Source: Polynucleobacter kasalickyi (lineage in GTDB: Bacteria > Pseudomonadota > Gammaproteobacteria > Burkholderiales > Burkholderiaceae). Taken from it: a stretch of 64,000 nt of DNA. The DNA lies in contig NZ_FWXJ01000002.1 in NCBI RefSeq assembly GCF_900176405.1, forward strand, positions 62,001 through 126,000, given 5' to 3'. Of the stretch, positions 32,208 to 40,510 are shown one piece after another; position 1 is the stretch's first letter, and each line of letters begins with the position of its first letter. The position numbers and the translations under genes were made by a program. The notes beneath the pieces were generated by a model, which was not told the DNA's origin, made no database searches, and was given only the letters and a program-made list of their open reading frames with translations.

Positions 32208-32654
32208 ATGAATCGTCGCGAATTATTGAAAATGACGACCCTGTTTGGCTTAATGGCCAGTAGTGGTCTGATTACACAAGCTCAAGCTAATGAGTGGGAA
32301 AAACAAGCATTCGAGGGTAAATCCTTGGATGATGTGGTCAAAGCACTAGGTGGTGGTGGCACCGAAAAATCATCCGGCGTCAATCTTACAGCACCTGATA
32401 TTGCAGAAAATGGTGCAGTGGTTCCCATTGTGATTGCAACCACCTTGAAAGCTAGTCAGATGGCCATTATTGTGGAAAAGAATCCGACTGCTTTGTCCGG
32501 TATTTTTTATTTCCCCGAAGGGGCTGAGCCTTTTGTATCAACACGCGTGAAGATGGCTCAAACATCCAACGTCTATGCGTTAGTAAAGGCTGATCAAAAG
32601 TGGTACATCGCTTCTAAAGAAGTGAAAGTAACACTTGGTGGTTGTGGCGGTTAA
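32208..32654 (+). CDS. soxY: Thiosulfate-oxidation carrier protein SoxY
   Basis: The periplasmic carrier half of SoxYZ. Sulfur intermediates are bound to its C-terminal cysteine and presented to SoxAX and SoxB. The protein has 148 residues. It begins with a Tat-type signal, NRRELLKM, then a hydrophobic stretch ending in AQA near residue 27. The last residues are TLGGCGG, the swinging-arm motif with carrier Cys146. AAGGA precedes the ATG. It is the first gene of soxYZAXB. SoxZ follows after 29 bases. Confidence 0.96.
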   Translation: MNRRELLKMTTLFGLMASSGLITQAQANEWEKQAFEGKSLDDVVKALGGGGTEKSSGVNLTAPDIAENGAVVPIVIATTLKASQMAIIVEKNPTALSGIFYFPEGAEPFVSTRVKMAQTSNVYALVKADQKWYIASKEVKVTLGGCGG

Positions 32655-32683
32655 TTGATTGATCTTCAATAAAAGGAATTGAT

Positions 32684-32995
32684 ATGGCAGATCCAATGCG
32701 CGTTAGAGCATCTGAAGTAAATGGTTTAGTAGATGTAAAAGTATTAATGAAACATGATATGGAAACTGGGCAGCGTAAAGACGCAGCTGGCAAAGTGATT
32801 CCAGCTTGGTTTATTACTAATTTGGTGGCTAAAGTTGGTGCTAAAGAAGTTTTTAAAGCCCAGTTTGGCACCGCAATTTCGAAAGACCCATTTTTGAATT
32901 TCAAAATTAAAGGTCCTAAAAAAGGCGACGAAATTACAATTACTTGGTTTGACTCAAAAGGCGAAACGAGAACTGATCGCGCTTTGATTGCGTAA
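32684..32995 (+). CDS. soxZ: Thiosulfate-oxidation carrier protein SoxZ
   Basis: The partner of SoxY, 103 residues with an immunoglobulin-like beta-sandwich pattern. It begins with DPMRVRASEVNGLVDVKVLMKHDMETGQRKDAAG and includes PAWFITNL and DPFLNFKIKGPKKGDEITITWFDSKGE, as in known SoxZ. No signal peptide is present, as expected: SoxYZ is exported as a complex using the SoxY signal. AAAAGGAATT lies upstream of the ATG. Confidence 0.96.
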   Translation: MADPMRVRASEVNGLVDVKVLMKHDMETGQRKDAAGKVIPAWFITNLVAKVGAKEVFKAQFGTAISKDPFLNFKIKGPKKGDEITITWFDSKGETRTDRALIA

Positions 32996-33036
32996 TATTT
33001 GATGTCGATTCCTTTTACCTTGTAAGGCTTTATCCA

Positions 33037-33831
33037 ATGAAAAAATCTTTAGTACTGTTGTTTACTCTCGGCTGTTTAAGTCAAGTGGTGTTTGGGCAAA
33101 ATATTTCAGATGAAATTGCCAAGTACAGAGAAATGATTGCCGATGGCAACCCTGCTGAGTTATACGCGGCGGCAGGTGAGGAACTTTGGGTCAAACCAAA
33201 TGGCCCGAAGCAAGCAACTTTGCAACAGTGTGATTTGGGTAAGGGCCCTGGAGTCGTGAAAGGGGCATTCGCTGAATTGCCAAGATATTTCTCTGATACC
33301 AATCGGGTCCAAGACCTTGAGTCACGTTTAATGTCCTGCATGGAAACTTTGCAGGGAATTGCGTCAAGCGATGTCATCAAAGATGCTTTTGGTAAAGGCT
33401 TGCGAAAAGACTTAGAAGCCGTAGTTGCTTATGTGGTGACTGAGTCTAAAGACTTACCGATTAAAGTGGTACCTAAACATCCGAAAGAAAAAGAAATGGC
33501 GCAACTAGGCGCCAAGATATTCTTTTATCAAGCGGGTCCGATGGACTTTTCTTGTGCAACCTGTCACTCCCAAAATAATAAACGGATTCGTTTACAAGAT
33601 CTTCCAAACATCACCACTGCAAAAGGGGCTGCTGAAGGCTGGGGATCTTGGCCTGCTTACCGAGTTTCTAGTGGTGAGTTTTGGACCATGCAACGACGGT
33701 TAAACGATTGTTTTAGACAACAACGACTCCCGATGCCGATTTACGGCTCTGATGCTACGGTTGCCCTATCGATGTATATGGCCTCAAAAGGCAATGGGGG
33801 AATCATTCAGACCCCTGGTCTGAAACGCTAA
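33037..33831 (+). CDS. soxA: SoxA, L-cysteine S-thiosulfotransferase c-type cytochrome subunit (monoheme form)
   Basis: With SoxX it joins thiosulfate to the SoxY carrier cysteine. The protein has 264 residues with an Sec signal ending near VVFG (residue 20). There is only one haem-binding motif, CATCH (Cys173, Cys176 and His177). In diheme SoxA a second CxxCH occurs in the N-terminal half; here that region keeps only Cys65 (LQQCDLGKGPG) and Cys101, a likely disulfide. Cys225 in LNDCFRQQRLP is the expected distal haem ligand, known in SoxA to be modified to a persulfide. It therefore belongs to the monoheme SoxA group. Confidence 0.94.
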   Translation: MKKSLVLLFTLGCLSQVVFGQNISDEIAKYREMIADGNPAELYAAAGEELWVKPNGPKQATLQQCDLGKGPGVVKGAFAELPRYFSDTNRVQDLESRLMSCMETLQGIASSDVIKDAFGKGLRKDLEAVVAYVVTESKDLPIKVVPKHPKEKEMAQLGAKIFFYQAGPMDFSCATCHSQNNKRIRLQDLPNITTAKGAAEGWGSWPAYRVSSGEFWTMQRRLNDCFRQQRLPMPIYGSDATVALSMYMASKGNGGIIQTPGLKR

Positions 33832-33849
33832 AATCAGGAAGCGAACATA

Positions 33850-34476
33850 ATGAACCAAATTTTAAAAATATCTTTTGCTTTGATGGTATTGATCATTGGT
33901 ATTAATCCAACGATTCATGCGGCTGAAAAAGCAGATCCCAAAGTCGTGCAAATGATGCAAAGTAGTTTTGTTGCTGCCGGCGTCGCTGATTTAAGTCGTT
34001 TAACGCAAGATGAATTGCAACTCCTTTGTTCAGATGAGAAATATCGCGATTCAAAGGCAGGCAAGGCAAAAGCTATCACACTCCAAACTGAAGCCTTAGC
34101 CAAGATCCCTAAACCAGTCGATGGTGTTTTCCTCGGTGATTGGAAAAAAGGTGAACAGGTTGCTCAGAGTGGACGTGGTGCAACTTTTACCGATGGTCCC
34201 AATACGGTCAACGGTGGTGGTTGTTATAACTGTCACCAGATTGATCCAAAAGAAATTTCTCATGGCACCATGGGCCCTTCCTTAGCAGCTTATGGCAAAA
34301 CTAGAGGGAATTCTGCGCCCATTGTTGAATATACATGGAACCGGATTTACAACTCAAAGTCCTATAATGCCTGCAGTAACATGCCACGCTTTGGCCACTT
34401 TAATTTGTTAACCCAAGAGCAAATGAAGGACTTAATGGCCTTATTATTAGATCCAAATTCACCAGTTAATCAATAA
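33850..34476 (+). CDS. soxX: SoxX, L-cysteine S-thiosulfotransferase c-type cytochrome subunit
   Basis: The second subunit of SoxAX. The protein is 208 residues with an Sec signal (hydrophobic segment 5–22, likely cut after IHA). Its haem c motif is GGGCYNCHQID near residue 126, and the probable axial Met is in CSNMPRFGHF. Other SoxX features are QSGRGATFTDGPNTVNGGGC and GTMGPSLAAYG. An N-terminal insertion of roughly 75 residues before the cytochrome domain is typical of longer SoxX proteins. AGGAAG lies upstream of the ATG. Confidence 0.94.
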   Translation: MNQILKISFALMVLIIGINPTIHAAEKADPKVVQMMQSSFVAAGVADLSRLTQDELQLLCSDEKYRDSKAGKAKAITLQTEALAKIPKPVDGVFLGDWKKGEQVAQSGRGATFTDGPNTVNGGGCYNCHQIDPKEISHGTMGPSLAAYGKTRGNSAPIVEYTWNRIYNSKSYNACSNMPRFGHFNLLTQEQMKDLMALLLDPNSPVNQ

Positions 34477-34488
34477 AGTCTGACTGAC

Positions 34489-36219
34489 ATGAGTCTTGAT
34501 CGTCGAGAATTTTTAAAGATTCTGTCTGTTGCTTCAAGTGCTGGATTAAGTCTGTCGAGTGAGATCGCTAGCGCGGAAGTTCAGGCGAAAAATTTTTATG
34601 ATTTACCGAAATTTGGTAATTTACATTTTTTGCACTTTACGGATTGTCATGCGCAGTTAAATCCCATTTACTTTAGAGAGCCACAATTTAATATTGGTGT
34701 TGCCTCGCAATTGAATCGTCCGCCACATTTAGTCGGTCAGGAATATCTAAAGGCTTTCAACATTGCCCCCAAGTCTGCAAAGGCTTATGCTTTTACCCAT
34801 TTAGACTTTACTAGTGCCGCGCATGCGTACGGTAAGGTCGGTGGCTTTGCACATCTCGCCACTCTCGTGAAACAATTGCGAGCAGATAGACCAGGAGCCT
34901 TACTCCTCGATGGTGGAGATACTTGGCAAGGAAGTGCGACGGCGCTTTGGACCAAAGGGCAAGATATGGTAGACGCTGCCTTGTTGCTAGGGGTGGACGT
35001 GATGACGGCCCATTGGGAAATGACACTTGGAGCTGAGCGTGTTCAACAGATTGTGGAGCGTGACTTTAAGGATAAGGTGTCCTTCATTGCCCAAAATATT
35101 CAGACGAGTGATTTTGGCGATCCGGTCTTTGAGCCTTACGTTCTGAAAGAAATGAATGGTGTGTTAGTGGCTGTGATTGGTCAAGCATTTCCGTATACGC
35201 CAATTGCTAATCCAAGATATTTCACACCCGATTGGACTTTTGGTATTAAAGAAGAAAATCTCCAAAAAACTGTTGATGAAGCCAGATCTAAAGGGGCTAA
35301 AGTAGTCGTTCTGTTGTCACATAATGGCATGGATGTGGACTTGAAATTAGCGACTAGAGTACGCGGTATTGATGCAATCTTAGGTGGGCATACGCATGAT
35401 GGCATCGCCCAGGCAATTCATGTAAAGAATGCTGGCGGCGTTACTTTAGTCACCAATGCTGGTTCGAATGGAAAGTTTTTGGGTGTCCTCGATTTCGCCT
35501 ACAAACAAGGTCGAATTACTGAGTTTCGTTACCAATTAGTACCTGTCTTCTCGAATCTCATTCCTGCTGATGGGTCAATGCAAGCATTGATCAATCAGGT
35601 CAGACGACCTTATGAGGAAAAGTTACAACAAGTTCTCGCTAAGACCGATACACTGTTGTATCGTCGCGGGAACTTTAATGGCACCTTTGATCAATTGATT
35701 GTCGATGGCTTGATGAAAGTGCAAGATGCACCAATCGCTTTTTCCCCTGGTTTTCGATGGGGTACTACTTTGTTACCCGGGCAAGATATCACCATGGAAC
35801 ATTTAATGGATCAAACGGCCATTACGTATCCACAAGCCACAGTGTCGATGCAGAAGGGCGAGGATCTCAAGAATATCTTAGAAGATGTCGCCGATAATCT
35901 ATTTAATCCTGATCCGTATTATCAACAAGGAGGGGATATGGTTCGTACCGGTGGCCTCACTTATGCGATCGATCCTTTTGCCAAGATGGGTAATCGCATT
36001 TCTGATATGCGCATCAATGGTCAACTATTAGAGGCTAGTAAAGTGTATAAAGTCGCTGGATGGGCTTCCGTCAATCCCGACGTGCAAGGTTCTTCTGCAC
36101 CACCGGTTTGGGATATTATTTCAAAATATTTGGCGGATCTAAAAGTAGTCACGCAATTGCGTCCGAATATTCCACTGATTAAAAATGTGACCGGCAACAA
36201 AGGTCTCAGTAAGACTTAA
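34489..36219 (+). CDS. soxB: Sulfate thiol esterase SoxB
   Basis: A dimanganese hydrolase that removes sulfate from SoxY-bound S-thiosulfonate. The protein has 576 residues with a Tat signal (DRREFLKILSVASSAGL). Metallophosphoesterase motifs are HFTDCHAQLNP, LLDGGDTWQGS, MTAHWEMTLG, LLSHNGMDVD and GGHTHDG. The C-terminal 5'-nucleotidase domain starts near residue 365. It is the last catalytic sox gene here. SoxCD, SoxV, SoxW and a SoxR-type regulator are not in the window. Confidence 0.96.
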   Translation: MSLDRREFLKILSVASSAGLSLSSEIASAEVQAKNFYDLPKFGNLHFLHFTDCHAQLNPIYFREPQFNIGVASQLNRPPHLVGQEYLKAFNIAPKSAKAYAFTHLDFTSAAHAYGKVGGFAHLATLVKQLRADRPGALLLDGGDTWQGSATALWTKGQDMVDAALLLGVDVMTAHWEMTLGAERVQQIVERDFKDKVSFIAQNIQTSDFGDPVFEPYVLKEMNGVLVAVIGQAFPYTPIANPRYFTPDWTFGIKEENLQKTVDEARSKGAKVVVLLSHNGMDVDLKLATRVRGIDAILGGHTHDGIAQAIHVKNAGGVTLVTNAGSNGKFLGVLDFAYKQGRITEFRYQLVPVFSNLIPADGSMQALINQVRRPYEEKLQQVLAKTDTLLYRRGNFNGTFDQLIVDGLMKVQDAPIAFSPGFRWGTTLLPGQDITMEHLMDQTAITYPQATVSMQKGEDLKNILEDVADNLFNPDPYYQQGGDMVRTGGLTYAIDPFAKMGNRISDMRINGQLLEASKVYKVAGWASVNPDVQGSSAPPVWDIISKYLADLKVVTQLRPNIPLIKNVTGNKGLSKT

Positions 36220-36243
36220 AGAGTATATTAAAAAGGAGTTGTC

Positions 36244-36669
36244 ATGAAAAAAGTGTTCATTAGCTTGTTGTGGGTTCTATCCGTTATGGGTATGAATGTA
36301 GCCTTGGCTGCACCAGATCAAGTGGTATATCACTTTGATGATACGCAAAGTCAAGGTTTAAAAGGACTTCGTAATCTTCGTAATCATTTGGACGCAGCGC
36401 CTGATACGCAAATTGTGGTGGTAACCCATGCGCAAGGCGTTGATATGCTAATGGAGGGCATGCGTGATACGAAAAGTGGTACAGAGTACGCGCCATTAGT
36501 AGCTGCGCTGAAATCTAGGGGCGTGCGTTTTGAGGTGTGTGAGATTACGCTACAAAATCGACAATTAAATAAAAATCAGTTCGTATTAGATGCTGACTTT
36601 ACCCCGTCTGGCGTCGTGCGCATTGCGCAGTTACAGTCGCGCAATCATTTTGCTTACATCAAACCTTAA
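36244..36669 (+). CDS. Periplasmic DsrE/DsrF-like protein
   Basis: A 141-residue DsrE-superfamily protein with an Sec signal peptide (MKKVFISLLWVLSVMGMNVALAA). The conserved Cys is in VRFEVCEITLQN, the position used for sulfur binding or transfer in DsrE-like proteins. AAAAGGAG precedes the ATG. It follows soxB by 24 bases and is probably co-transcribed. A periplasmic sulfur-relay role with SoxYZ is plausible but inferred. Confidence 0.85.
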   Translation: MKKVFISLLWVLSVMGMNVALAAPDQVVYHFDDTQSQGLKGLRNLRNHLDAAPDTQIVVVTHAQGVDMLMEGMRDTKSGTEYAPLVAALKSRGVRFEVCEITLQNRQLNKNQFVLDADFTPSGVVRIAQLQSRNHFAYIKP

Positions 36670-36725
36670 GCTATATTCCCACAAACAAGGCCTTTTTTCT
36701 TGGGGATTGATAGAGCGGATAGAGC

Positions 36726-37565
36726 TTAAGATAGGCCTTTAATGCCCATCATTACCGCAACGCAAAATGAAAAAATAGCAAAGATTTGTTGAATCGTCGG
36801 ACCTGCTAATTTTTTCGCAATGGTTCTGCCAATCATCAAACCAACGAGGGAGCCCCCGGCAAAGGGAATCGCAATGGGCCACATCATTAAGCCTGCTAGG
36901 GTTGAATTGATGACGCCCCCTAGCGAGACGATGGTTAGGACTCCAAGCGAGGTGGCAACAATCGAAGCTACAGGCAAGTCAGTTACTTTTTTGAGAGCTG
37001 GCACAATAATAAAGCCACCACCGACGCCCAGTAGACCAGAAAAAAATCCCGCAACACCACCAGCTAAAGCCAATGAGCGAGCACAGGGGACGGTCCAAAT
37101 GAGTTTGCCAATCGATTGATTTAAGAGGCAAGGAACGATTTTCTGTTGTTCATTCAAAATGCCTTTTGCTTCTTTATAAGATTGAATCATCATCCGGATT
37201 GAGGCGTAAAACAAGACGATAGAAAATATTAAGGTTAAGGGTTTATTGGGTAATTGATGTGCTGCATACAGGCCGATGGGGGATAGCGTCAGGCCAAACA
37301 TGGCCATGAGTCCAGCTGCTTTATATCGTAAGATGCGCTCTTTAAGGCCAAAAATTGAGCCAATCCCCGCCGAAATGCTGACTGCTAATAAGCCAATTGG
37401 CCCAGCTTGGCTAACCGAAAGTCCCATTCCGAATACCAGGAGGGGAACGGATAGAATTGCTCCACCAGCTCCCGTCAGAGACAGGATAAAACCGACCACA
37501 AATCCCAATGACGTTGGTAGAAGTTCATTAGCGAGCTGAATTTGATCAAGTAAATGAGTCGTCAT
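36726..37565 (-). CDS. TauE/SafE-family sulfite or organosulfonate exporter
   Basis: A 279-residue inner-membrane permease with about eight hydrophobic segments. It has the two TauE-type repeats: LPTSLGFVVGFILSLTGAGGAILSVPLLVFGMG near the N-terminus, and GGVAGFFSGLLGVGGGFIIVPALKKVTDLPV in the middle. The GxGGG loops are typical of the family. The substrate is inferred as sulfite from the sulfur-oxidation context. It is divergent from the persulfide dioxygenase and shares its 97-base promoter region. Confidence 0.88.
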   Translation of the reverse strand: MTTHLLDQIQLANELLPTSLGFVVGFILSLTGAGGAILSVPLLVFGMGLSVSQAGPIGLLAVSISAGIGSIFGLKERILRYKAAGLMAMFGLTLSPIGLYAAHQLPNKPLTLIFSIVLFYASIRMMIQSYKEAKGILNEQQKIVPCLLNQSIGKLIWTVPCARSLALAGGVAGFFSGLLGVGGGFIIVPALKKVTDLPVASIVATSLGVLTIVSLGGVINSTLAGLMMWPIAIPFAGGSLVGLMIGRTIAKKLAGPTIQQIFAIFSFCVAVMMGIKGLS

Positions 37566-37597
37566 AGATAAATATTTTAAGACTTAAAGGTTATAAG

Positions 37598-37618
37598 TAT
37601 ATTATTTATAGTAATATA
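37598..37618. promoter_or_regulatory. AT-rich dyad in divergent promoter, BigR/SqrR-type operator candidate
   Basis: TATATTA (37598–37604) and TAATATA (37612–37618) form a 7-7-7 inverted repeat in the intergenic region between the TauE gene and the persulfide dioxygenase gene. ArsR-family persulfide sensors (BigR, SqrR, YgaV) bind TA-rich palindromes in front of such genes. No such regulator gene is in the window. Confidence 0.5.
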
Positions 37619-37662
37619 AAGACTGATTCTATACCTTATTGCCGTTTTTTGGGAGTTAAATT

Positions 37663-38535
37663 TTGAAATCCACATCGCAACCAATCGTAAAAACATTTTT
37701 TGATCCGGTTACTTGGACTTTTACTCATGTCGTTTATGAAGCAATTAATACCCCTTGCATCATCATTGACTCGGTTTTGAACTATGATCCGAAGTCTGGC
37801 AGAACCTCTACCCATAGTGCCGATGAAGTGATTCAGTTTGTCAAGGAGAGTGGCTTGCAGTGTCAGTGGATTTTAGAGACTCACGCCCATGCTGATCATG
37901 TCAGTGCCGCCCCTTACTTACAAACCCATTTAGGTGGCAAGATTGCTATTGGTAACCAAATCACGAAAATTCAAACCGTATTTAAAGACATCTTTCATTT
38001 AGAGTCGAGTTTTCCAGTCGATGGCTCGCAGTTTGATGAGTTGCTAGTTCCTGATGAGATCTGGTCCTTTGGCAATTTAGCATGTAAAGCAATCTTTGTC
38101 CCTGGGCATACCCCTGCTTGTGTTGCATACCAAGTGGGAGATGCCATATTTGTGGGCGATACCTTATTTATGCCAGATGTTGGTACGGCTAGATGTGACT
38201 TCCCAGGAGGGAATGCTGAGCATTTATATCAATCGATCCAAAAAATCTTATCAAACCCACCGGAGACACGTTTATTTATGTGTCATGACTACCCGCCTAC
38301 CAATCGGCCAGTCGCTTATCTCACAACGGTGAGAGAGGAGCAGCAGTCGAACATTCATGTCCATGAGGGAGTGAGTGGTGAGGCATTTGTTGCGATGCGC
38401 ACTAAAAGAGATCAAACTCTAGATATGCCAGTACTCATTTTGCCATCTATTCAAATCAATATTAGAGCTGGACACTTGCCACCGCCAGAAGAAAATGGTG
38501 TGTCTTATTTGAAAATTCCTTTAAATCAGCTATAG
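37663..38535 (+). CDS. ETHE1/Blh-like persulfide dioxygenase (metallo-beta-lactamase fold)
   Basis: Expected to oxidise glutathione persulfide to sulfite, detoxifying sulfide. The protein has 290 residues. The iron-binding signature THAHADHVSAAPYL supplies His74, His76, Asp78 and His79; VPGHTPACVAYQVGDAIFVGDTLF and GTARCDFPGG are characteristic of ETHE1/Blh-type persulfide dioxygenases. There is no rhodanese domain. The start is a TTG at 37663 with GGGAG about eight bases upstream and no nearby ATG. The YeeE/YedE pair follows after 12 bases, and TauE is divergent. This set equals the targets of BigR in other proteobacteria. Confidence 0.88.
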   Translation: MKSTSQPIVKTFFDPVTWTFTHVVYEAINTPCIIIDSVLNYDPKSGRTSTHSADEVIQFVKESGLQCQWILETHAHADHVSAAPYLQTHLGGKIAIGNQITKIQTVFKDIFHLESSFPVDGSQFDELLVPDEIWSFGNLACKAIFVPGHTPACVAYQVGDAIFVGDTLFMPDVGTARCDFPGGNAEHLYQSIQKILSNPPETRLFMCHDYPPTNRPVAYLTTVREEQQSNIHVHEGVSGEAFVAMRTKRDQTLDMPVLILPSIQINIRAGHLPPPEENGVSYLKIPLNQL

Positions 38536-38547
38536 AAAAGTAACACT

Positions 38548-38994
38548 ATGATCACAATTAATTGGCATGAATTTACTCCGCAAAGTGCTTTAGCTGGCGG
38601 TATTTTGATTGGTTTAGCAGCAGCTATATTGGCGCTGTTTAACGGTCGGATTATGGGTGTATCGGGCATCGTTTCACAGTTGTTTACCGCTGGTACGCCA
38701 CCCAAGGAACATTTTCGTTGGCATTTGTTATTTATTTTTGGAATGTTGCTTGCGCCCATGTTTTACCGGTCGGTAGCTTATATTCCGAAAGCGCAAGATC
38801 ATGCCACGATACTGCAACTGATCATCGCCGGAACTTTAGTCGGGATTGGTACTCGCCTAGGCTCAGGTTGTACCAGTGGACACGGTGTTTGTGGCTTAGG
38901 GCGCTTATCACCGCGCTCGCTCATTGCCACCCTATGCTTTATGGGCTCTGGCTTTATCGCAGGCTATTACTTTTTACACGGAGTGAATTCATGA
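38548..38994 (+). CDS. YeeE/YedE (PmpA-like) sulfur-compound membrane protein
   Basis: A 148-residue membrane protein with about four hydrophobic segments. It carries the YeeE/YedE signature [24 protein letters not shown], with a conserved Cys that in this family takes part in uptake of thiosulfate or other sulfur compounds. It is the N-terminal half of what is a single protein in some species. Its stop overlaps the next start by four bases (ATGA). Confidence 0.88.
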
Positions 38995-39410
38995 ATCAAC
39001 TTACGGCACTCATTAGTGGACTCGTTTTCGGCTTTGGTCTTATTTTATCGGGGATGACCAATCCCGCTAAAGTAATTGGCTTTTTAGACTTGTTCGGGAA
39101 TTGGGATCCTTCATTAGGTTTCGTGATGGCCGGGGCGATTGCAGTGACCTTCATTGCCTTTCAGTGGTTAAAAAAGCGTCAAAAAACTTTACTGGGAGAA
39201 TCTTTACACTTTCCAGGTACCACGCATATTGATCCCAGACTTATGGTCGGTAGCTTATTGTTTGGCATTGGTTGGGCCTACGCGGGTTACTGCCCAGGCC
39301 CAGCGATTGTCGCTTTAGGCGATGGTCGTTACCAACTCCTATTTTTCCTCATTCCCATGATTCTAGGAATGAAAGCGGTTGATCTGGCATCCCATTACTG
39401 GAAAAAATAA
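38991..39410 (+). CDS. YeeE/YedE second half (DUF6691, PmpB-like)
   Basis: A 139-residue membrane protein, the partner of the preceding gene. Features are VFGFGLILSGMTNPAKVIGFLDLFGNWDPSL, a charged loop KKRQKTLLG, and GIGWAYAGYCPGPAIVALGDG with the conserved Cys. The ATG at 38991 overlaps the stop of the upstream gene, so the two subunits are translationally coupled. A longer frame open upstream of this ATG was rejected because it runs through the other gene out of phase. Confidence 0.88.
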   Translation: MNQLTALISGLVFGFGLILSGMTNPAKVIGFLDLFGNWDPSLGFVMAGAIAVTFIAFQWLKKRQKTLLGESLHFPGTTHIDPRLMVGSLLFGIGWAYAGYCPGPAIVALGDGRYQLLFFLIPMILGMKAVDLASHYWKK

Positions 39411-39460
39411 TGGCACAGGCCTCGTTTTTGTCGTCGGTTGAGTAAATAAAGGAGTTTTAA

Positions 39461-39646
39461 ATGAACAATATCGGTTTGAATGATCGTATCGTACGCATCG
39501 TGGTGGGTTTAATGCTGGTGTTTTTAACCCTCATCAGTGTGATTGGCGTTTGGGGTTGGGTTGGTTTAATTCTGATTGTGACCGGTCTCATGCGCTTTTG
39601 CCCAGCTTATAAGATTCTTGGCTTTAAGACTACACCGAAAGAATAA
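39461..39646 (+). CDS. DUF2892 small membrane protein
   Basis: A 61-residue protein with two hydrophobic segments (about 12–31 and 33–47), DUF2892 type. It has RIVRIVVGLMLVFL and GLMRFCPAYKILG. The same domain forms the membrane part of the rhodanese YgaP in E. coli, so it may be a sulfur-related membrane anchor, but the rhodanese domain is absent. AAAGGAG lies upstream of the ATG. It closes the persulfide-dioxygenase operon. Confidence 0.85.
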   Translation: MNNIGLNDRIVRIVVGLMLVFLTLISVIGVWGWVGLILIVTGLMRFCPAYKILGFKTTPKE

Positions 39647-39720: not shown

Positions 39721-39750
39721 TTCGTGTGACTCAACGCACGCTCTTTTTTC
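39721..39750 (+). terminator. Rho-independent terminator of the sulfur operon
   Basis: CGTGTG (39723–39728) pairs with CGCACG (39735–39740; five pairs plus one G·U) around a 6-base loop, followed by CTCTTTTTTCT. It lies about 75 bases after the DUF2892 gene. Confidence 0.8.
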
Positions 39751-39928: not shown

Positions 39929-40510
39929 ATGAGATTGACAACTAAAGGTAGGTTTGCAGTAACCGCAATGATCGATTTGGCGATGAGGCAGCATAACGGC
40001 CCGGTCACTTTATCCGAGATCAGTTCTAGGCAAGATATATCGTTATCTTACTTGGAACAGTTGTTTGGGAAGTTACGTCGCGTCAATATTGTACAAAGTA
40101 CCCGCGGTCCTGGAGGTGGTTATTCCTTGTCCAGAGATGACAAAGAAATCTCGATTGCTGAAATTATTACAGCAGTGGATGAGCCAATCGATGCCACCCA
40201 ATGTGGCAATAAAGGGAACTGCCAAAGTAAGCGTGGTCATTCCGGCGAATGCATGACGCATGAATTATGGTCCAACCTCAACAAAAAAATGGTGGATTAT
40301 TTACAATCTGTTACGTTGAATGATGTTGTCGTTGCTCAAAAAGACAAAGACACTCATATTCCAACTTTTGTAAAAGGTAGTCCAATGGTCAGCGCAAATG
40401 AGCTTGAAAAGCGCCAGGCTATTATCGATAAAAGAAGAAAAAAATTAGTGGAAGCTGAAAATAAACCTTTCATCGCTAACTCTGTTTTTAATTTTGCACA
40501 ACAAACTTAG
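39929..40510 (+). CDS. iscR: Iron–sulfur cluster regulator IscR
   Basis: An Rrf2-family [2Fe-2S] transcription factor that represses the isc operon when clusters are plentiful. The protein has 193 residues. The winged helix starts with [18 protein letters not shown]. Cluster ligands are Cys92, Cys98, Cys108 and His111. Compared with E. coli (Cys92, Cys98, Cys104, His107), the loop between the second and third cysteines is four residues longer. An excellent IscR site precedes the gene. Confidence 0.95.

Follow-up and report, generated by a model that had tools for sequence, protein, structure and literature searches.

SoxXA loads thiosulfate onto a cysteine of the sulfur carrier SoxY and SoxB then removes sulfate, steps that are established for these protein families; elemental sulfur is a known outcome for some Sox systems that lack SoxCD. 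When soxCD was deleted in Cupriavidus pinatubonensis JMP134, sulfane sulfur appeared transiently and was oxidized by persulfide dioxygenase (PDO), and on thiosulfate the transcripts of pdo1, pdo2, yeeE, and yedE rose 31.3-, 4.9-, 7.8-, and 18.4-fold (PMC9959259). The same paper lists incomplete Sox systems in 20 Betaproteobacteria, 16 of which also have PDO. Here, we describe an island of sulfur oxidation genes from Polynucleobacter kasalickyi, located at positions 32208 to 39646 of a 64,000-nucleotide stretch of DNA (G000:C19:62001-126000; hereafter the window). The source genome, G000, is a 2.91-Mb draft in 37 contigs that is 99.94% complete, with 0.18% contamination. As in the JMP134 mutant, PDO and YeeE/YedE transporters here accompany a Sox core that lacks SoxCD; however, the JMP134 case is a laboratory deletion, and "DsrE" is absent from the text of that paper, whereas P. 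kasalickyi carries one natural island and, elsewhere in its genome, a SoxCD-like pair of another lineage.

The evidence tips slightly toward reading the island as an incomplete Sox system in which sulfane sulfur would leave SoxY for PDO via the half permeases PmpA and PmpB, the SoxCD-like pair on contig C16 being most likely a Sox-independent sulfite dehydrogenase. The original prediction, made from the window alone, held that SoxCD is missing from the island, and this was borne out: no soxC or soxD open reading frame (ORF) was seen by eye in the ORF list from 28 to 46 kb, and genome-wide soxC and PF00174 searches gave no match on the island's contig.

The SoxCD-named pair on contig C16

A search of the genome for the molybdenum oxidoreductase family led to three places, which encode SoxC on contig C16, SorT on C15, and MsrP on C27. 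The C16 SoxC scores 539.6 bits against TIGR04555 (cut-off, 420) and is the only match above that cut-off in this 37-contig draft. Its gene overlaps the gene of a 188-amino-acid SoxD-like cytochrome, for which 2xts_B (E value, 9.7e-34) is the top match of known structure. The original prediction had named a soxCD pair elsewhere in the genome, together with full oxidation to sulfate, as what would speak against it. Such a pair exists by name; however, tree, motif, and gene context set it in a lineage found only away from soxB, and for this reason we do not regard the idea as refuted. The view of the C16 genes as a plain refutation was dropped after both of the trees described below.

The neighbors of the C16 pair are quinoprotein (pyrroloquinoline quinone, PQQ) dehydrogenases, a cytochrome c, and then magnesium-chelatase-type genes, with no sox genes nearby. 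Of the two quinoprotein dehydrogenase genes downstream of the pair, the first passes a methanol/ethanol-type PQQ model and the second matches PF01011; the one upstream was assigned by eye. Among the magnesium-chelatase genes (L004:15557-18345), BchI passes its cut-off and BchD falls just under (568 of 571 bits), and from these genes the organism may be an anoxygenic phototroph.

In neither tree does the C16 SoxC group with SoxC proteins encoded beside soxB, and the linked groups all exclude it. The first tree comprised 38 rows, namely, G000, SoxC from 36 other places, and a SorT outgroup. All 18 soxB-linked SoxC (15 from congeners) lay on one side of a 96/94 branch; on the other side were 18 rows whose fetched stretch (8 to 20 kb) contained no soxB, together with G000, whose nearest rows were G077 and Methylosinus trichosporium pOB3b1. 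The linked SoxC of Paracoccus pantotrophus DSM 11072 (pPAN3) aligns over the entire 390-residue chain 2xts_A, the printed residues being identical. Although the C16 SoxC belongs to the same family as the P. pantotrophus protein of known structure (PDB 2xts) and is about 45% identical to it, the two fall on opposite sides of the main branch of this tree, and C-A-G-N in the former stands against C-A-A-N in the latter. A pair of this second type is carried by pPAN2 of P. pantotrophus DSM 2944; the stretch fetched there gave no match to SoxB or SoxY, and the PLSDB table, which is incomplete, annotates no other sox genes within 8 kb. The G000 protein is also more divergent than those of other congeners (540 bits versus 591 to 617 for full-length matches).

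A wider sample of 229 genomes from the class contained 36 genomes with SoxC above the cut-off and 75 with a SoxB match, G000 being in both sets. Besides that of G000, 37 SoxC were read: 5 within 12 kb of soxB, 13 unlinked in genomes that have soxB, and 19 in genomes without a soxB match (E value, 1e-150), 15 of these last from genomes that are more than 90% complete. In a second, quick tree of 66 rows, from which nine congener rows were omitted, G000 and 39 other SoxC formed a clade of 40 rows (SH-aLRT, 97) with no soxB-linked member. G000 fell within a 22-row subclade (SH-aLRT, 100) that likewise has none and to which genomes lacking a soxB match contribute many rows.

The presumed molybdenum cysteine motif follows a similar division. 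It reads C-x-A-N in all 23 soxB-linked SoxC, whereas C-x-G-N is present in 40 of 51 unlinked SoxC, that of G000 among them, and in none of the 23 linked ones (Fisher P value, 3e-11, for rows that are not independent); here and throughout, Fisher values count related genomes as independent and overstate certainty. Class-sample genomes without a soxB match contribute 15 of the 40 C-x-G-N rows. By alignment, C-x-G-N is also found in SorT and in the sulfite oxidase 2a9d, which we take to be the chicken enzyme. A Trp versus Phe/Tyr signature was clean in the first set (Trp in 18/18 orphans; Phe in 17/18 linked SoxC, with Tyr in P. pantotrophus) and was left unused, Trp being present in 2 of 23 linked SoxC in the wider set.

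Several observations weigh against assigning the C16 pair to a Sox-independent lineage. The pair combines a SoxC equivalog-level score with a SoxD cytochrome partner. The linked SoxC are not one clade in the 66-row tree, where four state changes are required; the P. pantotrophus protein (the 2xts type) stands alone, and linked SoxC from G082 and G140 cluster with nine unlinked rows. Motif and clade agree except in two rows: G137, with C-x-G-N, is not in the 40-row clade, and G169, with C-x-A-N, is. Contig ends could hide linkage between soxC and soxB, and 4 of the 19 SoxC from genomes without soxB come from assemblies that are less than 90% complete. Linkage, moreover, is not function, because the remaining 11 of 51 unlinked SoxC have C-x-A-N as well, and in 7 of these cases soxB lies elsewhere in the genome.

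It is unlikely, in our estimation, that the unlinked C16 SoxCD serves the island and that the Sox system is thereby complete, converting thiosulfate to sulfate without free sulfane sulfur. The score of the C16 SoxC above its curated cut-off, the match of its partner to 2xts_B, and the presence of the pair in the same nearly complete genome favor this explanation, and the 13 unlinked SoxC from soxB-containing genomes of the class sample suggest that Sox systems with a distant soxCD may exist. However, the well-supported 22-row subclade that holds the G000 protein argues otherwise, as do six congeners (G001, G008, G012, G014, G036, and G037) in which an orphan SoxC exists alongside a soxB-linked one, so that the two kinds are not simply interchangeable there. 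In addition, the orphan copy of G008 lies among organosulfonate-type genes. Because the C16 SoxC has a quinoprotein dehydrogenase context, belongs to a soxB-unlinked clade, and carries C-x-G-N, the premise that the genome has no cognate SoxCD probably survives. The genes on C16 therefore probably encode a Sox-independent sulfite dehydrogenase rather than the missing sulfane dehydrogenase.

A comparable assignment exists for Filomicrobium sp. Y, in whose methanesulfonate region a SoxC-SoxD pair outside a sox cluster was read by the authors as serving sulfite oxidation (PMC4433239). The neighbors described there, TauE and GcvT, recur beside the orphan SoxCD of congener G001 (L049: TauE and a GcvT-like gene), whereas the G000 pair lies among PQQ dehydrogenases and not among sulfonate genes. 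In G008, the orphan SoxCD (L045:4541-10677) adjoins a sulfolactate-dehydrogenase-like gene (213 bits; cut-off, 500) and a YeiH-type exporter, and the same locus has altronate-dehydratase-type genes of 93 and 390 amino acids, read as SuyAB-like; the predicted context is perhaps organosulfonate desulfonation. Loci L046 to L048 show gene sizes similar to those of L045. A literature search for orphan SoxC found no paper that separates two kinds of SoxC, within a partial coverage that leaves out most subscription journals.

Layout of the island and the fate of its sulfane sulfur

All five Sox core proteins (SoxXA, SoxYZ, and SoxB) score above the NCBI curated cut-offs. The plus-strand genes soxY (32208 to 32654; TIGR04488, 165.2 bits; cut-off, 125), soxZ (32684 to 32995; TIGR04490, 119.2 bits; cut-off, 76), soxA (33037 to 33831; TIGR04484, 241.1 bits; cut-off, 110), soxX (33850 to 34476; TIGR04485, 82.9 bits; cut-off, 61), and soxB (34489 to 36219; TIGR04486, 854.4 bits; cut-off, 550) encode the sulfur carrier with its C-terminal GGCGG arm intact (...KVTLGGCGG), SoxZ, the two c-type cytochromes, and the thiosulfohydrolase, which is the sole SoxB match in the genome. 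A DsrE-like gene (36244 to 36669, plus strand; PF02635, 43.4 bits; cut-off, 22.7) follows 24 bases after soxB. On the minus strand lies the gene of a TauE/SafE-type exporter (36726 to 37565; PF01925, 144.5 bits; cut-off, 32.6), and the plus strand resumes with pdo (37663 to 38535; PF00753, 61.9 bits), the YeeE/YedE half permease genes pmpA (38548 to 38994; PF04143, 45.8 bits) and pmpB (38991 to 39410; PF20398, 170.9 bits; PF04143, 34.5 bits), whose ATG overlaps the pmpA stop codon, and a gene for a 61-amino-acid YgaP-like membrane segment (39461 to 39646; PF11127 YgaP-like_TM, which we take to be DUF2892; 73.4 bits).

Every island gene named in the original prediction was thus recovered by profile match within the stated coordinates. 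The description of one run held for gene content and not for organization, since the TauE gene splits the island into two plus-strand units, soxYZAXB-dsrE (32208 to 36669) and pdo-pmpA-pmpB-DUF2892 (37663 to 39646). The island is flanked by uvrB on one side and the isc genes on the other, and its claimed connection to isc was reduced to mere adjacency and dropped: iscR (39929 to 40510, plus strand; an ORF named from its sequence), the first of the neighboring isc genes, lies outside the island and starts 282 bases downstream of the DUF2892 gene. A weak terminator-like hairpin was found between the two by pattern match (39723 to 39740, plus strand), such hairpins being not clearly above chance (12 found versus 8.0 +/- 2.8 in shuffles), and promoter matches were at chance level only.

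The DsrE-like protein has a signal-peptide-like N terminus, as judged by eye, and a single cysteine, Cys99; it matches PDB 1l1s (E value, 5.7e-8) and is the only DsrE match in the genome. Cys99 is kept in 19 of 19 aligned rows, its own included, a count biased upward because the rows were chosen by a motif elsewhere in the protein. A search of genome contigs found relatives at two loci (L023 and L024; 73% and 69% identity), both from betaproteobacterial metagenome-assembled genomes, and the reference set recognized no Sox genes near them in stretches of 14 to 20 kb.

In the absence of a cognate SoxCD, sulfane sulfur would remain on SoxY after the SoxB step and could pass to small thiols or proteins, for which the DsrE-like protein, through Cys99, is a candidate acceptor. 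The transferred sulfur would then enter the cytoplasm via PmpA/PmpB, where PDO would oxidize it to sulfite; the sulfite could leave via TauE and be oxidized by the sulfite dehydrogenase SorTU or could react back to thiosulfate. All of the transfer steps after SoxB, like the role of the C16 pair, are what we infer from these gene families. The sulfite dehydrogenase genes are on contig C15, where SorT (641.8 bits; cut-off, 570) is followed by SorU (103.1 bits; cut-off, 100), both above curated cut-offs; genes for an alternative oxidase and an alkyl-sulfatase-type enzyme are nearby (L005:1157-8110).

Of the other routes proposed for checking, dsrAB and HdrB-type genes were looked for across the genome. 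PF01077 matched only a 569-amino-acid frame with two domains and an 818-amino-acid frame, read from frame length and domain number as CysI and NirB, and there was thus no dsrAB. PF02754 likewise revealed no HdrB-type gene, its matches being limited to frames of 444 and 1281 amino acids that were read as glycolate-oxidase and lactate-dehydrogenase types; other shdr genes were not searched. Three matches to PF21342, in a TsdA-type search, fell on two SoxA-type proteins. Contig C15 also carries a second soxY-soxZ-soxA set (L013:8661-10331, minus strand), beside which neither soxX nor soxB was noticed. Its SoxZ and SoxA pass curated cut-offs, whereas its SoxY ends in NACFDAT, not GGCGG, and has a SoxY_para-type model as its best match (64 bits; cut-off, 172). 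Adjoining this set (L013:4436-8598) are an FccB-like flavoprotein (PF21706, 144.5 bits; PF09242, 44.5 bits) and then a two-gene xanthine-dehydrogenase-family oxidoreductase.

The outlet through PDO and PmpA/PmpB faces objections of its own. The substrates given here for the transporters TauE and PmpAB are presumed. Among congeners, DsrE is found beside soxB in 31 of 39 genomes with a linked soxC and in 4 of 6 without one (P = 0.60), and PDO anywhere in the genome shows the same proportions (31/39 versus 4/6; P = 0.60). The DsrE-like protein and PDO need not be an outlet, because neither is associated with soxCD loss. We therefore rejected the DsrE-like protein, equally common beside soxB with and without soxC, as a substitute for SoxCD, and PDO as a substitute gained upon soxCD loss; in five loci that keep soxC, PDO is close to soxB. 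Both proteins are part of the ordinary sulfur tool-kit of the genus, and they may be used as an outlet. The suggestion that they provide one where SoxCD is missing accordingly stands as far as the published PDO and YeeE/YedE mechanism goes and is unsupported as regards a tie to SoxCD loss.

These counts bear on a second explanation, which we regard as doubtful: that the island consists of two independent modules, one (soxYZAXB-dsrE) oxidizing thiosulfate in part and the other (pdo-pmpAB with TauE) detoxifying sulfide or persulfide in the manner of bigR operons, with no sulfur flow between them. The convergent TauE gene divides the two units, and congeners have PDO irrespective of soxCD; just 5 of the 39 soxC-linked congeners (G010, G026, G033, G034, and G044) have it within 12 kb of soxB. 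Xylella and Agrobacterium have a bigR operon for BigR, Blh, and a transporter related to TauE (PMC5823870). The island resembles it in combining a Blh-type dioxygenase with a TauE-type exporter, here on the opposite strand. It differs in that its PDO comprises only the ETHE1/Blh dioxygenase part and has no DUF442 sulfur-transferase part, matching NF040641 (Blh) over profile positions 138 to 423 of 423 with 365.6 bits, below the cut-off of 625. No BigR/ArsR repressor was noticed by eye among the ORFs from 30 to 40 kb and no match to a congener ArsR was found from 28 to 44 kb, the rest of the genome not having been searched. Against two separate modules, pmpA lies within the sox locus in 17 of the 21 genus loci read, G000 included, and in JMP134, PDO and YeeE/YedE respond to thiosulfate after soxCD removal (PMC9959259). 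Release of the sulfane sulfur from SoxY as elemental sulfur, a fate known from other incomplete Sox systems, is very improbable: SoxCD-less systems may accumulate sulfane sulfur, according to the same source (PMC9959259), but PDO and the half permeases are within the same island, and the FccB-like flavoprotein could recycle sulfide too.

Sox loci with and without soxCD in the genus

The genus set comprised 49 genomes, including G000. A soxB match was present in 47, two of them as fragments that were kept (G022 and G042), and G015 and G017 had none. In 39 congeners, soxC lies within 8 kb of soxB, and the sox locus is without soxC in G000, G007, G011, G016, G023, and G045; G028 and G041, with soxB and soxC on different contigs, probably through contig breaks, were not counted as truncated loci.

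The complete arrangement is exemplified by G008 (L035), which reads arsR-soxC-soxD-soxYZAXB-dsrE-SoxH-like-cyt c-yeeE-pmpA-pmpB. The island of G000 shares with it the soxYZAXB-dsrE order and the nearby pmpAB, whereas it lacks arsR-soxCD, the SoxH-like gene, the cytochrome c gene, and the full-length yeeE and sits between uvrB and isc. In G007, G011, G016, and G023, the flanking genes are as in G008 on both sides, and arsR, soxC, and soxD are missing from a site between soxY and a gene of 216 amino acids in G008 (218, 221, and 232 in G007, G011, and G016; a 121-amino-acid reading in G023). The SoxB tree implies three soxCD state changes among the genus rows used and alone cannot separate loss from gain.

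Other genes are absent together with soxCD. A SoxH-like metallohydrolase (for example, L035:12958-14280) is encoded in 13 of 15 soxCD loci versus 0 of 6 loci without soxCD (Fisher P value, 0.0005), the exceptions being G037, with none, and G005, with a weak 27% match only. A small cytochrome shows a similar distribution (12/15 versus 0/6; P = 0.0015). These comparisons are of related rows over 13 to 20 kb of sequence; in G045, only about 1.5 kb lie between soxB and the contig end. Because SoxH-like proteins and SoxCD vanish together, their co-loss suggests that SoxH-like proteins work with SoxCD. After pmpB, G008 also has a stand-alone BLH_phosphatase gene (L035:16379-16723), presumably of the DUF442 type, with counterparts in G007, G011, G016, and G023; the island PDO is without this Blh half.

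Meaning for the reading of Sox pathways

So read, the island adds one more case with PDO to the incomplete Sox systems, a known type, and the use of PDO and YeeE/YedE after soxCD loss has already been published (PMC9959259). Beyond this, we advance a broader proposal tentatively and short of an even chance: that the C-x-G-N SoxCD lineage, labeled SoxC by the current curated model, forms a sulfite dehydrogenase of its own that is independent of Sox, with the result that soxC models inflate the number of Sox systems scored as complete; that P. kasalickyi represents a natural loss of soxCD with PDO and PmpAB as the outlet; and that SoxH-like proteins act with SoxCD.

Detection of soxC often decides whether a genome is called a full thiosulfate-to-sulfate oxidizer. 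In P. kasalickyi, the standard soxC model matches a gene that tree, motif, and context put outside the Sox system, and a search by gene name would probably score as complete a pathway that is likely incomplete. If this lineage is indeed a sulfite dehydrogenase, many pathway predictions would need correction. Meanwhile, the presence of soxCD in some congeners and its absence from others at a single syntenic locus constitute a natural experiment on the fate of sulfane sulfur.

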